Assembly: GCA_030679915.1 (NCBI GenBank)
Contig: JAUXRY010000038.1
Location: 62,001-126,000, forward strand
From: Thiobacillus sp.
GTDB taxonomy: Bacteria; Pseudomonadota; Gammaproteobacteria; Burkholderiales; Thiobacillaceae
Direction of reading: 5' to 3'
DNA: 64,000 bases
Shown here: positions 6,645 to 55,717 of the stretch, in pieces
Position numbering within the stretch: position 1 is the stretch's first letter
Layout: the number at the start of each line of letters is the position of its first letter
The notes under the pieces: generated by a model
Told to the model about the DNA's origin: nothing
The model's input: only the letters and a program-made list of their open reading frames with translations
Database searches by the model: none
Made by a program: the position numbers and the translations under genes

Positions 6645-7049
6645 ATGCACACACACTTCACGCTCTTGCCGGACGAGGTCGAAATCACCGCGATTCGCGC
6701 ACAAGGAGCCGGCGGGCAAAACGTCAACAAGGTGTCCAATGCGGTGCATTTGCGTTTTGACATCGCGGCCTCGTCGCTGCCGGAAGCGATACGCGAGCGG
6801 CTTCTGGCGCTGGGCGATCAGCGCATCAGCAAGGATGGCGTCGTGGTCATCAAGGCGCAGGCATTTCGCAGCCTGGAGAAAAACCGTGCCGAGGCGCTGC
6901 GCCGCCTGCATGACCTGATCGCCAGCGTGGCCGTGCTGCCGAAAAAACGCCGGCCGACCCAGCCGACCCGCTCCTCGGTCAAAAAGCGGCTGGAGGGCAA
7001 GACGCGGCGAGCGACCGTGAAAGCGGGACGGGGAAAAATAGTCGAGTAG
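6645..7049 (+). CDS. arfB: Alternative ribosome-rescue peptidyl-tRNA hydrolase ArfB
   Basis: A 134-residue class-I release-factor-like protein with the catalytic GGQ loop (GAGGQNVNKV, about residues 25-34) that hydrolyses peptidyl-tRNA on stalled ribosomes. A highly basic C-terminal tail (KKRRPTQPTRSSVKKRLEGK...) would enter the empty mRNA channel. It has the length of ArfB/YaeJ and lacks the codon-recognition domains of RF1/RF2. I start at ATG 6645 (MHTHFTLLPDEVEI) because the 12 residues upstream do not fit the family. Confidence 0.9.
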   Translation: MHTHFTLLPDEVEITAIRAQGAGGQNVNKVSNAVHLRFDIAASSLPEAIRERLLALGDQRISKDGVVVIKAQAFRSLEKNRAEALRRLHDLIASVAVLPKKRRPTQPTRSSVKKRLEGKTRRATVKAGRGKIVE

Positions 7050-7108
7050 GGCGGGTCTCAAGAACCAGCGCCGTCGAGTGAGATTAATCGTAATGGATTT
7101 GAGTTGCC

Positions 7109-25364: not shown

Positions 25365-25396
25365 AGACCATTATCGGCCATGAGCACTCCTTCGCT

Positions 25397-25436
25397 GTGC
25401 TTTATTCGGAAGTCCGGTAGCCGAACCTTAACAGTA
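25397..25436. repeat. 40-bp dispersed repeat next to cassette 1 (copy 1)
   Basis: This 40-bp block matches 54380-54419 at 32 of 40 positions without gaps. Both copies lie immediately outside the 3' boundary of an integron-type cassette, in the same orientation. It therefore belongs to the flanking target or to a neighbouring cassette remnant rather than to the attC itself. Copy 1 ends 33 bp from the stop of the glycosylase gene. Confidence 0.7.
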
Positions 25437-25491
25437 GCTCAACGTTTGAAATCACCGGGCTGCGCGGCTCCGGTGGATTGATGGGTTGAGC
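25437..25491 (-). repeat. attC-type recombination site of cassette 1
   Basis: On the minus strand the 55-bp site reads R'' GCTCAAC, 5-nt spacer, L'' AATC-C-ACCGG, an 11-nt variable loop, L' CCGGTGATT, 6-nt spacer, R' GTTGAGC. R''/R' pair 7 of 7 and L''/L' pair 9 of 9, with one extra C in L'' (an extrahelical G on the folded bottom strand). This matches the known attC architecture. R'' begins one base after the TGA stop of the lipoprotein gene. Confidence 0.85.
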
Positions 25492-26133
25492 ATCATTTCA
25501 AGCTCGGGACTTCCTTTTCAACGTAGCCTATATGCGCCGTCCACTCGTCAAGGCAAAGGGCAAAGCCACCGCCCTCACAGTCTTCACTGCCTTGCCTCTT
25601 TAGGGCGAATATCCGCCCTTGTGGTATCCCGGCACTCATATATGCCAAGAAGTCAGTCGAAGAATCACCATATGCATATGAAAGGTGCCAGTTCGCCTTG
25701 GTGTAGGTACGAAGAATCTCGGCTTTGAAAGTGGCGGGCATCTTCCGTTCTTGATCATTTTGCGCGATGTGAACAGGTCCAGAAGGGAAGTTGTACTTTT
25801 TAAGCCATTTCTCTAGCCCGGACTGAAAGGCGGGGACGCGTGTTGTCACATAAACTATCTTGTACCCCTTACGCACATAGGCTGCGACAACTTTATCTGC
25901 GTCTGGTCGAGCTTCAAACACGGATAGGTTATGGGGTGTCAGCGTTCCGTCAATATCTAGGACAACCACCTGTCCAACCGGAGGGTCGGGAATCGGGACT
26001 GGCGGCAGTTGTACGCACCCGGCTGCGAAGACGCTAACGATTATGGGAAAAGCAGTGAAGGTGCGCATGGTGCTTTCCGCATGAGATATAGATTTAGTGA
26101 ACGAACGCAGGGAGGGGATTCGGTGATGCCCAA
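25443..26133 (-). mobile_element. Solitary integron-type gene cassette 1 (about 691 bp)
   Basis: The cassette is bounded by G/TTRRRY crossover points: GTTGGGC at 26134-26128 upstream and GTTGAGC at 25443-25437 in its attC, both read leftward. It holds one gene (25493-26068) with a 65-bp leader and a stop codon abutting the attC, as in integron cassettes. Base composition looks more AT-rich than the neighbours. No integron integrase is present in the window. Confidence 0.75.
25493..26068 (-). CDS. LNS2/lipin-like HAD phosphatase lipoprotein
   Basis: A 191-residue protein with a lipoprotein signal (MRTFTAFPIIVSVFAAGC, Cys 18). The mature domain is HAD-fold: motif I VVLDIDGTLTPHN with the DxD pair, motif II YVTTR, and motif III/IV AYGDSSTDFLAYMSAGIP. 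The order and spacing (GYKIVYVTTRVPAF...L..W......GPVHI...FKAEILR...AYGDSSTDFLAY..AGIP..RIF) resemble the LNS2 domain of lipins and PITP-type proteins. It is a likely Mg-dependent phosphatase anchored in an envelope membrane; the substrate is unknown. The frame extends upstream into the IS element only by chance; ATG 26068 gives the signal peptide. Confidence 0.75.
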   Translation of the reverse strand: MRTFTAFPIIVSVFAAGCVQLPPVPIPDPPVGQVVVLDIDGTLTPHNLSVFEARPDADKVVAAYVRKGYKIVYVTTRVPAFQSGLEKWLKKYNFPSGPVHIAQNDQERKMPATFKAEILRTYTKANWHLSYAYGDSSTDFLAYMSAGIPQGRIFALKRQGSEDCEGGGFALCLDEWTAHIGYVEKEVPSLK

Positions 26134-26142
26134 CAGTTAATA
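26128..26142 (-). repeat. 15-bp 5' boundary repeat of cassette 1
   Basis: TATTAACTGTTGGGC (read leftward) is identical to the sequence at 55248-55234. The last seven bases are a GTTRRRY core site marking the start of the cassette. The preceding bases are similar in the two places for a few more positions (18 of 22 overall). Confidence 0.75.
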
Positions 26143-26173
26143 TGCGGACGCCAGCATCATATAACATGGCGGA

Positions 26174-27248
26174 TTCAACCCTGAAGCGCAACGACATTTT
26201 GCTGCGATTGTAACTGCGCCATAAACACCTCGTGTGGTGTTCTGAAGCCAAGGCATTTTCTGGGTCGATGGTTGAGTTTATCGACAGCAAATGTGATCTC
26301 TTCCGGGGTGATGGAATCGAAAGACATCTTCTTCGGAAAGAACTGCCGAATGAGGCCGTTCATGTTCTCGTTGGCGCCGCGCTCCCACGAGGCGTAAGGA
26401 TGGGCAAAGAAGAAGTCGGCTCCAAGTTCGCTGGCGATACGCTCATGCTGTGCGAACTCTTTGCCGTTGTCTGTCGTCAGCATGTGAACACAGGCGGCAT
26501 AGGGCGTCAGCAAGGAAACCATGACATCCGATACTGCCTGCGCGGTCTTCTTCGGCACGTGTCCGATCAGCGCGTAACGGGACTTGCGCTCGTTGATTGT
26601 GACGAGCGCCTGTTGATGACCCGCACCAATGACCAGATCGGCCTCCCAGTCGCCAAACCGTTCGCGTGTTCCAACCATGGCCGGGCGTTGCTCGATTGAT
26701 ACCTGGTTGGGGATGGTGCCGCGCCGTTCGCGACCGCCATAGCGTTTCCGCCGCGCCTTCTGGTAACGTAGCGCGCGATGCAGGATGCCGCCGTTGCGTT
26801 TGTCAGCGTAGATGCGATGGTAGATCGCCTCATGACTGACTGAGGGCAAGCCGCGCTCGTCGAGTCGGCCGGTGATCTGCTCGGGGCTCCACAGTTCACC
26901 AAGCCAAACATCCACGACCGCCCATGTCTCGTCAGGAATTCGAGGACCGTTCTCACACGCCCGCATGCGCGCTTCTGATAACACTTGCGCTTGCTTCGGT
27001 CGATAGCCGCGCTGCCCCCGGTTACGGCGCAGCTCACGGCTGATCGTGGAAGGATGGCGATTCATGTGCCGGGCAATGTCAGTCTGCTTATGTCCGGCCT
27101 TGAGCAGAATGGCAATTTGGTATCGTTCGTCTCGGGTGAGATGGGTGTAGTTCATTCTTGGCAACTTTGACTTGGCGGTCGAGGGGCTCAGATGCTATTC
27201 CATCTCGCCCACCCAACCTGTTACTCAAAATTGCACTTCGGATTTGAA
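26174..27248 (-). mobile_element. IS30-family insertion sequence (about 1.07 kb)
   Basis: Imperfect terminal inverted repeats TTCAACCCTGAAGCGCAA (26174-26191) and TTGCACTTCGGATTTGAA (27231-27248) match at 14 of 18 positions when reverse-complemented. They enclose a single intact IS30-type transposase, whose stop codon lies inside the right-hand repeat, as often in this family. The outer limits and target duplication (normally 2-3 bp) cannot be fixed by eye. It is inserted about 40 bp outside the 5' edge of cassette 1. Confidence 0.8.
26175..27164 (-). CDS. IS30-family transposase
   Basis: The 329-residue protein has the IS30 order. An N-terminal HTH (YTHLTRDERYQIAILLKAGHKQTDIARHM...STISRELRRN) is followed by an integrase-like catalytic core. 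The DDE residues are in FGDWEADLVIG, LTTDNGKEFAQHE and YASWERGANENMNGLIRQFFPK. No frameshift or stop is visible, so the element may be active. ATG 27164 is used; MNYTHLTRDER, three codons in, is an equally plausible start. Confidence 0.93.
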   Translation of the reverse strand: MPRMNYTHLTRDERYQIAILLKAGHKQTDIARHMNRHPSTISRELRRNRGQRGYRPKQAQVLSEARMRACENGPRIPDETWAVVDVWLGELWSPEQITGRLDERGLPSVSHEAIYHRIYADKRNGGILHRALRYQKARRKRYGGRERRGTIPNQVSIEQRPAMVGTRERFGDWEADLVIGAGHQQALVTINERKSRYALIGHVPKKTAQAVSDVMVSLLTPYAACVHMLTTDNGKEFAQHERIASELGADFFFAHPYASWERGANENMNGLIRQFFPKKMSFDSITPEEITFAVDKLNHRPRKCLGFRTPHEVFMAQLQSQQNVVALQG

Positions 27249-27421
27249 CTCGCGCATTATTATTTAGGGCGTCCATTATGGTCATGTAACCACATGATTC
27301 ACAATAGTTTTCATTTTTCTGCGTCTCTATAACAATCCCCAATGATATTGCCGGCTTGGCAAGACCACTGGGCGTTTCCTATGGCCGCTATAGGTCGTCG
27401 CTAGTCGCCACTGAAGGTGCG

Positions 27422-53959: not shown

Positions 53960-54379
53960 AACAATCTCCTTCTCTTTGGATTGAATGCAGAACGGAGCGT
54001 CTCCGTTCTGGCGGGCGAGACCGCGCCGCTCACTGGAAGCTGCCAGCAGCGCCTGCGTTGGGTCTGCGGCTTAGTCGAGAAGGTTTGAGAAACTTTACAT
54101 TTATTTTGTATTTCAGTATCAGGCCTTGGTGTGGGCTCTGTTTGAATGGGTTTCGTAAGAATTAAGTGGGCATGCGATGGGGAGCGAGGTGAACAGGGGC
54201 TGTTTCTTTACACGCGCTTAATCGCCTCGCGCATCGAAATTGAATAACCCTGTCATTTGATTGCGACACCCGTAAATAATGCGTTCAGGATGCGTATTCC
54301 GGGAAAAACAGCCACTTATTCCGATTGAAAGTCGCTACTGAAGCGACCGTCTCAGTTCGGCCAGAAGCGGGCATTCTCA
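53960..54379. other. Intergenic region upstream of the spondin gene
   Basis: No gene is seen. It holds a perfect 10-bp hairpin (CAGAACGGAG / CTCCGTTCTG, 53988-54010) in the spondin leader. It also has a smaller stem, GTCGCTACTGAAGCGAC (54328-54343), in a stretch resembling dispersed intergenic repeats, next to cassette 2. A degenerate cassette remnant is possible but not shown. Confidence 0.4.
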
Positions 54380-54419
54380 GTGCTTTCTGGGGAAGTCTGG
54401 TAGCAGGACCTTAGCAGTC
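54380..54419. repeat. 40-bp dispersed repeat next to cassette 2 (copy 2)
   Basis: This is the partner of 25397-25436 (32 of 40 identities). It directly abuts the outer edge of the attC of cassette 2, in the same relative orientation as copy 1. The shared position suggests both cassettes entered copies of one repeated target. Confidence 0.7.
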
Positions 54420-54477
54420 GCTCAACGTGGGAATTCAGCGGCTGCCGTAGGCGGTCCGCTGGAATGAAAAGTTGGGC
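54420..54477 (-). repeat. attC-type recombination site of cassette 2
   Basis: Read leftward, the 58-bp site is R'' GCCCAAC, 5-nt spacer, L'' ATTC-C-AGCGG, a 14-nt variable loop containing a GCC/GGC stem, L' CCGCTGAAT, 6-nt spacer, R' GTTGAGC. L''/L' pair 9 of 9 with one extra C at position 17, the same position as in the site at 25437-25491. Spacer lengths are also identical. R'' begins 7 bases after the TGA of the membrane-protein gene. Confidence 0.85.
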
Positions 54478-55239
54478 CGCTCAGTCATAAAACCTCCGAT
54501 AAGGTTTTGGCCGCTAGAACCAACACGGCTGATAATGCTGAGAAATAGGTGAATGGATCGTTTTTGGGGTCACTCGATGCCTCCGAAATATGCAGTCCAA
54601 GCCACCGAAGAAGGAGTGTGAGATATTTCAGAACGACAATCAATAAGAATACAAGTAGCAACACGGAGATTGGCGCGCACGCAATAACATAGGTGGCTAC
54701 GGCAGATAGGGCGAAGTAGAACCCAACCAAATTTGGGATATTATTTGAAACTATGCCGATGATTTCTAAACCAAAATATAAGAACAGCGGTGCCATGATT
54801 AAAATGACAAGACTGGTTGATCCGTCGCTTAGATGAGTGGCGCAGACCCGCAATGTTGTAAATATCAAAAAGAGAACTACTAAGCCTATTGAGATGATTA
54901 AAAGGGACCAATCCCAAGGGATCATCACATTCCCCCAAAGAAAGGCTATTCCGGCGAGACCTATCCATACAAGCGCCGTCATCAATACCAGTCCCACATA
55001 GAACACGTATCGAATCTTTAGAACGATTCTGATTGCCGGCTTTGCAATCTGCGATGGTTTTACATCGCTCAGGAAAAAATACAAACGTACAAGTAGGTCC
55101 CTTGCCAAAGCAGTTGCCTTCTGTGCGAAGCCAGACCTATTGTGGTATGTGTCAATAAATTTCCCAACCGCAAGTAAAAGTGCAGCAATGGAGAGAGTCA
55201 CGCTCCAAGTCATTGCGTCCCCTTCTCTAAGAGGCCCAA
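54426..55239 (-). mobile_element. Solitary integron-type gene cassette 2 (about 814 bp)
   Basis: Bounded by crossover points in GTTGGGC (55240-55234) and GTTGAGC (54426-54420), read leftward. It contains one gene (54485-55213), with a 26-bp leader carrying AGAAGGGG and a stop codon close to the attC. It is clearly AT-richer than the flanking genes. No integrase gene is in the window. Confidence 0.75.
54485..55213 (-). CDS. Polytopic membrane protein of unknown function (cassette 2)
   Basis: A 242-residue protein with about six hydrophobic segments: near 1-20, 70-95, 98-118, 130-150, 158-178 and 182-205. The C-terminus is more polar. The second predicted loop is short and basic. I recognise no family and no catalytic motif. 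Low GC, a single-gene cassette setting and a nearby attC indicate horizontal gain. It is preceded by AGAAGGGG with suitable spacing to ATG 55213. Confidence 0.7.
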   Translation of the reverse strand: MTWSVTLSIAALLLAVGKFIDTYHNRSGFAQKATALARDLLVRLYFFLSDVKPSQIAKPAIRIVLKIRYVFYVGLVLMTALVWIGLAGIAFLWGNVMIPWDWSLLIISIGLVVLFLIFTTLRVCATHLSDGSTSLVILIMAPLFLYFGLEIIGIVSNNIPNLVGFYFALSAVATYVIACAPISVLLLVFLLIVVLKYLTLLLRWLGLHISEASSDPKNDPFTYFSALSAVLVLAAKTLSEVL

Positions 55240-55248
55240 CAGTTAATA
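55234..55248 (-). repeat. 15-bp 5' boundary repeat of cassette 2
   Basis: TATTAACTGTTGGGC read leftward is identical to the sequence at the 5' edge of cassette 1 (26142-26128). It contains the GTTGGGC core site where the cassette would have joined. Confidence 0.75.
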
Positions 55249-55717
55249 GAGAGACCCATGGGTCCGGACGTTTTTTAATAAAGAGACAGGCATTTTCACT
55301 TTCTATCGTCTTGATTCTTATATAGATGTTGAGCCGGCTGTCTCTTTATTACTTTATGCAAAAGGTGACGGAGCGCTTCCGGATTATGCACCTGTTCAGG
55401 GCGCTCAACTATCTGCGTGACGCCGGGGGAGGGATTCTGAAATAGGCCGCCTTCGGCACATCAACGGACATTCCGAGAGCACGCCTCGACCGTCTCTTCA
55501 GGGTCGAGCTGAGACAGTGATAGTCAGCTGATATTTGAATGCATGGCGGGTTTCAGCCGGAATGAGTGGCTGGTTTGAGTGGAATACGCACAGGACGACG
55601 CGTTGAGAACCAAGGCGTTTTCCGTGCAGTGATGAAGAGTATGAGCGGGGGGGTCGCCATTGAATGCGAAGCGGTTGTCTGGCTGCGGTTATTAGTAACC
55701 CACTCCGAAACCTGACT
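55240..55717. other. Intergenic region between cassette 2 and gpsA
   Basis: No convincing gene is seen in these 478 bp. Near the cassette edge lie a GACCCATGGGTC palindrome and a 13-bp inverted repeat (55277-55289 / 55338-55350). A third related motif (AATAGAGAGAC) lies beside the crossover site. A 29-codon rightward frame (55367-55456) encodes MHLFRALNYLRDAGGG-like sequence, possibly a fragment of a lost gene. Confidence 0.4.
55277..55350. repeat. 13-bp inverted repeat upstream of cassette 2
   Basis: AATAAAGAGACAG (55277-55289) and CTGTCTCTTTATT (55338-55350) are exact reverse complements separated by 48 bp. The interval contains a further GTTGAGC (55328-55334). It could be a miniature element, a terminator-like structure or the remains of an older attC. 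Confidence 0.6.

Follow-up and report, generated by a model that had tools for sequence, protein, structure and literature searches.

A Thiobacillus gene cassette in a candidate integrase-less integron platform

The usual picture of an integron is one integrase, one attI and one array. Integron parts that lack autonomy and are bounded by repeats are also known, as integron mobilisation units and MITE-flanked integron pieces, and the insertion of cassettes at attG sites was reportedly described by Loot et al. in 2024. Integrase-less attC clusters are likewise well known, and the accessible part of one account lists three proposed routes to them, namely off-target insertion, loss of the integrase gene intI and rearrangement (PMC8618304). 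According to the available text of a second paper, CALIN cassettes can be mobilised in trans, and CALINs occupy seven chromosomal loci in Xanthomonas (PMC12444791). By default, as far as the available description of the program goes, IntegronFinder 2 calls a CALIN from two attC upward (PMC9024848). Here we analysed a 64,000-nt stretch of a Thiobacillus genome, G000 (the window), in which a preliminary description had placed a solitary, mobile single-gene cassette in a betaproteobacterial chromosome, far from any integrase.

The attC of this cassette had been located at 25437-25491, and both its coordinates and its fold were borne out. We ran the covariance-model check that had been proposed with R2, a leave-out model trained on 10 attCs from relatives and none from G000, which gave the site 50.8 bits (E 9.4e-10 on a rough calibration) and found only two attCs within the 64 kb at E up to 1, the other lying at 54420-54477. 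Read on the minus strand from 25491 to 25437, the site consists of R'' (GCTCAAC), a 5-nt spacer, L'' with one extrahelical base, the loop, L', a 6-nt spacer and R' (GTTGAGC), and so has the core boxes, L boxes, unpaired spacers and extrahelical base of an attC. None of 200 shuffles of the 55-mer folded as well, whichever strand was taken; when 7 nt of flanking sequence was added at each end, 4/200 and 1/200 shuffles did so on the two strands. A hand-written attC scanner returned 0 sites on one 208-kb Markov-shuffled set, and an Rfam scan of the window gave no match. By fold and covariance model, 25437-25491 is a real attC. Compared with an attC of another species (L095, 9290-9356), its loop differs by a 12-nt indel and its arms are kept.

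The anatomy of the cassette was also as first described. The stop codon of its gene (TGA, 25493-25495) lies one base from R'', and its 5' edge is a GTTRRRY core, G|TTGGGC, at 26134/26133, so that the cassette proper, between two G|TT points, measures 691 bp. The gene starts with the ATG at 26068, and its 191-aa product carries an LNS2/HAD-type phosphatase domain (Pfam PF24694, 5.5e-28) and, by eye, a lipoprotein-like signal.

We compared the cassette and its flanks with 56 genomes of the genus. Matches were obtained in 15 of them, and a single full-length relative, G045, holds the same cassette (95% identical) in the same gap between alkA and xth. There were also many partial matches, which end at the cassette edges. 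The matches make up three blocks, of which one is the attC, one spans ~65 nt next to it and one lies at the other cassette edge. This last, left block is an attI, identified by the homologous modules that adjoin intI elsewhere. Modules of its type, A, lie 91-92 nt from an intI in divergent orientation, which is full length in G285:C14, broken in G012:C22 and reduced to a 68-aa remnant in G001:C41. Modules of a second type, B, which is unlike type A, lie 91-119 nt from intI in G053:C5, G032:C24, G001:C13, G012:C5, G008:C3 and G028:C209, with intI in two pieces in the last two; one more module next to intI, at a contig end in G045:C67, was excluded from the counts. On the attC side stands a right-end module of 68 nt, 17 of which were found in the fetched loci, 10 of them directly adjoining a model-detected attC. 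Both borders of the cassette are integron parts, an attI module on one side and a right-end module on the other, and the order of the unit between alkA and xth is attI, cassette, attC and right end, with no intI beside the attI (Table 1).

Table 1. Coordinates of the two intI-less units, numbered from the first letter of the window
Feature	Position	Strand	Basis or remark
Right-end module	25375..25442	-	85% identity to module in L096; R' half TTGAGC of attC belongs to module
attC	25437..25491	-	Fold, shuffles, scanner, R2
Cassette	25443..26133	-	G|TT points; same cassette at same locus in G045
Cassette gene, 191 aa	25493..26068	-	PF24694
attI type A, proximal part including crossover point	26134..26167	-	86% to type-A attI, query 89-123
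IS30-like insertion sequence splitting attI	26168..27254	-	CAT duplication; HTH_38 and rve; missing from G045 attI
attI type A, distal part	27255..27346	-	80% to type-A attI, query 1-91
Second unit, right-end module	54358..54425	-	Right-module scan
Second unit, attC	54420..54477	-	R2 51.2 bits, E 7.6e-10
Second unit, cassette gene, 242 aa	54485..55213	-	Membrane-protein-like by eye; no Pfam match
Second unit, attI type B	55240..55361	-	Used as type-B query B3; 71% over 272 nt to G000:C19 left module
Second unit, left end	55362..55506	-	Common to 16 other loci

The attI of this unit, recognised by its homology to modules beside intI, is split by an insertion sequence, beyond which, on the outer side, lies xth. 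Members of the IS30 family combine a helix-turn-helix and an rve transposase with a short target duplication. The element shows these features, with HTH_38 at 59 bits, rve at 31.3 bits (slightly below the cut-off of 32.6) and a 3-bp CAT duplication at 26165-26167 and 27255-27257. With its attI interrupted 33 nt upstream of the crossover, the unit is probably frozen or weakly active.

Of the preliminary description, the genuine single-gene cassette in a betaproteobacterial chromosome stands, while its solitary position at a plain site gives way to the attI and right-end module that border it. The same borders bear on whether IntI put a solitary cassette into a secondary, attG-like chromosomal site, as one cassette, no adjoining intI and an intact intI in the same genome would allow. 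An attG is neither attI nor attC, whereas the cassette here is bordered by an attI module on its left and by a module common to other units on its right, which makes such an insertion very improbable. The distance from any integrase holds inside the window; on the same contig, the proposed search for intI elsewhere found an intact integron integrase ~39 kb away (G000:C39:47738-48682), which scored 476 bits over TIGR02249 against a cut-off of 265. This intI belongs to an integron with an attC (L009, 6800-9400), and on the other side of intI lie a second copy of the attI-like upstream stretch and the start of a truncated intI.

An empty site joining 26134 to 25442 had been predicted in relatives; as both borders are integron parts, it would amount to an empty platform. 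None was found: 0/17 right modules abut an attI, and a joined attI-B/right query, which matched one part or the other in 35 of the 56 genomes and in up to nine places in one genome, gave no match that extended more than ~15 nt to both sides of the joint. Nor was a clean empty alkA-xth site seen, alkA and xth adjoining in G002 and the gap holding another gene in G028.

A second intI-less single-cassette unit lies in the window before gpsA (54358-55506). At the corresponding locus of G045, the same short inverted repeats enclose an unrelated gene that by eye looks PEP-CTERM-like. Altogether G000 has six orphan attIs, two of them inside the window. Its third complete unit (L140, G000:C19, 10814-11603) carries a gene for a 128-aa product without Pfam match, and the same locus has a truncated attI-B at 7037-7101; at 6881-7487 of L093 (G000:C25), another orphan attI of type A is accompanied by an attC and a cassette of the glyoxalase family.

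To count such platforms in the genus, we fetched 60 regions and searched them, together with the loci already obtained, for four elements: attI, intI, attC and the right module. The rows of this census are attI matches that stop no more than 12 nt short of G|TT, from loci chosen by matching, with orthologous sites entered separately; a left match in G033:C68 and partial type-A matches in L151 and L152 were left out. The attC counts come from model R1 at E up to 0.05, the 14 training sites of which match by construction. Type-B attIs had intI within 1.7 kb in 6 of 64 cases and were orphans in the other 58. At least 1.2 kb of outer sequence was available for 53 of these orphans, and 39 of the 53, from 30 genomes, had a correctly oriented attC no more than 3.5 kb away. 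For type A, intI or its remains accompanied 3 of 13 attIs, and 5 of the 10 orphans had an attC. No attC was seen in the sequence examined at 14/53 type-B and 5/10 type-A orphans, 6 and 2 of which had less than 1 kb. The census genomes are drafts, and draft assemblies inflate counts of intI-less arrays, according to the available text of PMC9024848. Each of the two units in the window has one attC, and other units have 2-4. Neither attI-B nor the right module had a match among 72,556 plasmid records; in 399 sampled genomes of the wider order, the right module was matched in three (one a 22-nt match) and attI-A in eight (two being 21- and 42-nt matches).

The units have defined ends. In 17 type-B loci a common left end has the same start point (CGACCCTGAAGAG), and nearly all 17 copies of the right module stop at the same place (CTGGCCG). 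The sequence outside is mostly unrelated, similar outer flanks being confined to a single left-end pair and two right-end pairs; such sharp ends at unrelated sites are what is expected of a non-autonomous transposon-like unit. The left and right ends form imperfect inverted repeats, CGACCCTGAAGAGACGGTC and CGGCCAGAAGCAGTC. If these were terminal inverted repeats used by some transposase, the integron part would be cargo of a transposon-like unit, a reading that the sharp edges and the repeats make conceivable and that we nevertheless consider doubtful, since no clear target duplication was visible by eye, the type-A unit described here lacks a well-defined left end, copies of the end motif are present outside integrons too, and G045 carries a different gene between the same repeats at the locus of the second unit. 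These last two observations weaken terminal inverted repeats as a defining feature and leave spread by transposition as a possibility, not a result; that the platforms spread as units in some manner is what we infer. A dispersed intergenic motif (GACCGTCTC..TTCGGCCA.AAGCGG) was noted in the genus at L113, L125, L171 and other loci, beside integron and non-integron inserts.

We identified orthologous orphan attIs by an all-against-all comparison of flanks, and at some of them, all without intI, the cassettes of related species are unrelated. One such site is common to four species (G034, G050, G024 and G052), with identities of 79-89% for the left flanks and 87-91% for the right. A single gene lies between the flanks and is a different one in each species; the four products are a 184-aa protein without Pfam match, AbiTii, an Mrr-type nuclease and a KAP NTPase. 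Over its last 50 nt, the attI is 92-96% identical to that of the first species, compared with 46-68% for the preceding 50 nt and 34-42% for the 50 nt after G|TT; in G052, the attI match at this site is incomplete and no attC match was found. At a site shared by G001 and G031, flanks 95-96% identical enclose arrays with 3 and 4 model-detected attCs that have no similarity by blastn. In G017 and G022, the outer flank is 87% identical (left comparison alone) and the first cassettes differ. At all three divergent sites, identity stops at G|TT to within the 50-nt window. Elsewhere the cassettes agree: the unit at 25375-27346 has the same cassette in both species compared (G000 and G045), the first cassettes of G012 and G001 are homologous (66%, with a shared outer flank that begins only ~1 kb away), and those of G003 and G019 are near-identical, with too little outer sequence for a comparison of flanks.

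AbiTii, Mrr-type and KAP NTPase proteins, which are encoded by the cassettes of L267, L268 and L272 at the four-species site, are types known from phage defence. The right flank of L247, L267, L268 and L272 places the orphan attI between a chromosomal gene and the apparent terminator of that gene (AAAACCGGGGC...GCCCCGGTTTT), and the cassettes might therefore be read through from that gene.

Plain decay would make each orphan attI the remnant of a complete integron that lost intI, its cassettes frozen relics and the differences between species older than the loss. Such loss is among the recognised routes to integrase-less clusters in the accessible text of PMC8618304. It agrees with the broken intI genes of G008:C3, G028:C209 and G012:C22, with the remnant beside the attI of G001:C41, and with the shared cassette of G000 and G045. 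Independent losses, however, would not leave 17 loci with the same left end, devoid of intI and bounded by the same outer edge. Species with flanks 95-96% identical and no cassette in common at one orphan site also speak against decay, as does the four-species site, where conservation is higher in the attI core than around it. We judge decay unlikely as the general account. We give the same low probability to array replacement by homologous recombination, in which the orphan platforms would be passive and the homology of their flanks would let imported DNA swap a whole array. Both flanks are indeed near-identical around swapped arrays, but recombination tracts are expected to end at various points, whereas identity ended at G|TT in 3/3 cases, and IntI would still be needed to build the donor arrays.

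We favour, as the probable explanation, that the cassette occupies one of a class of integrase-less integron platforms dispersed over Thiobacillus chromosomes, whose cassettes are exchanged through IntI made elsewhere. The platform consists of an attI, here with one cassette and its attC, and a conserved right-end module, between alkA and xth. Most platform copies would have lost intI, and cassettes would come or go at attI by attI x attC recombination, catalysed by IntI made elsewhere in the cell or in the population and thus acting in trans. Full-length integrases beside type-A or type-B attIs score ~390-397 bits against TIGR02249, compared with ~450-500 bits for the commoner integrase lineage of the genus, and we propose that the attI modules of the platforms are those of integrons of this second IntI lineage. 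The only intact integrase found in G000, the assembly of which is ~80% complete, belongs to the commoner lineage and may not recognise type-A attI, which we count against platforms served in trans. We also count against them the intI remnants beside some attIs, a sign that plain decay happens too, the potential origin of whole-array swaps in homologous recombination with donor DNA, the orphans at which no attC was seen, the incomplete attI match and missing attC match of G052 at the four-species site, the inflation of intI-less counts by draft assemblies, the lack of any empty platform among those seen, and the cassette unchanged between G000 and G045. Two genomes rated 99-100% complete, G031 and G052, have orphan platforms and no intI match at E 1e-45, so that service in trans would there be past or come from outside. 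A broader proposal is that Thiobacillus has a distributed integron, with many chromosomal attI platforms, mostly without intI. These would spread as non-autonomous units whose ends are defined, and one or two integrases acting in trans across the genome would load them with cassettes, defence-like genes included; we advance this proposal tentatively, at somewhat less than an even chance.

If orphan attI platforms are loaded in trans, one enzyme could place new genes at many chromosomal addresses, each with its own local expression context, and a survey limited to intI, or to attC clusters, would miss such placement. Trans loading would also offer a concrete, testable mechanism by which solitary attC sites lacking intI come about and remain in use.

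In the literature searched, mainly non-subscription, we found no account of the Thiobacillus platforms, nor of dispersed intI-less platforms that have their own conserved attI and cassettes differing between species; we rate them as a variant of the known integrase-less attC clusters. The attC-bearing cassettes without adjoining intI are what they share with CALIN. The Thiobacillus units differ in keeping a recognisable attI, in some cases with a common right end, and in occupying several loci per genome, and the single attC of each window unit falls short of the two-attC default given in the available description of IntegronFinder 2. The Xanthomonas CALINs come close, being described in the available text as arrays without intI that are scattered over conserved positions, separate from the main integron; that text mentions no attI at the arrays, whereas the Thiobacillus units have one. 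Insertion at attG sites likewise leaves cassettes away from intI; the site here differs in being an attI module. Integron mobilisation units and MITE-flanked pieces resemble the present units as non-autonomous integron parts bounded by repeats, and differ in that the Thiobacillus units show no clear target duplication and have an end motif that is not specific to integrons. With sedentary chromosomal integrons, the platforms have in common attI, cassettes and attC in the chromosome, but they are without intI at the platform and several occur per genome.
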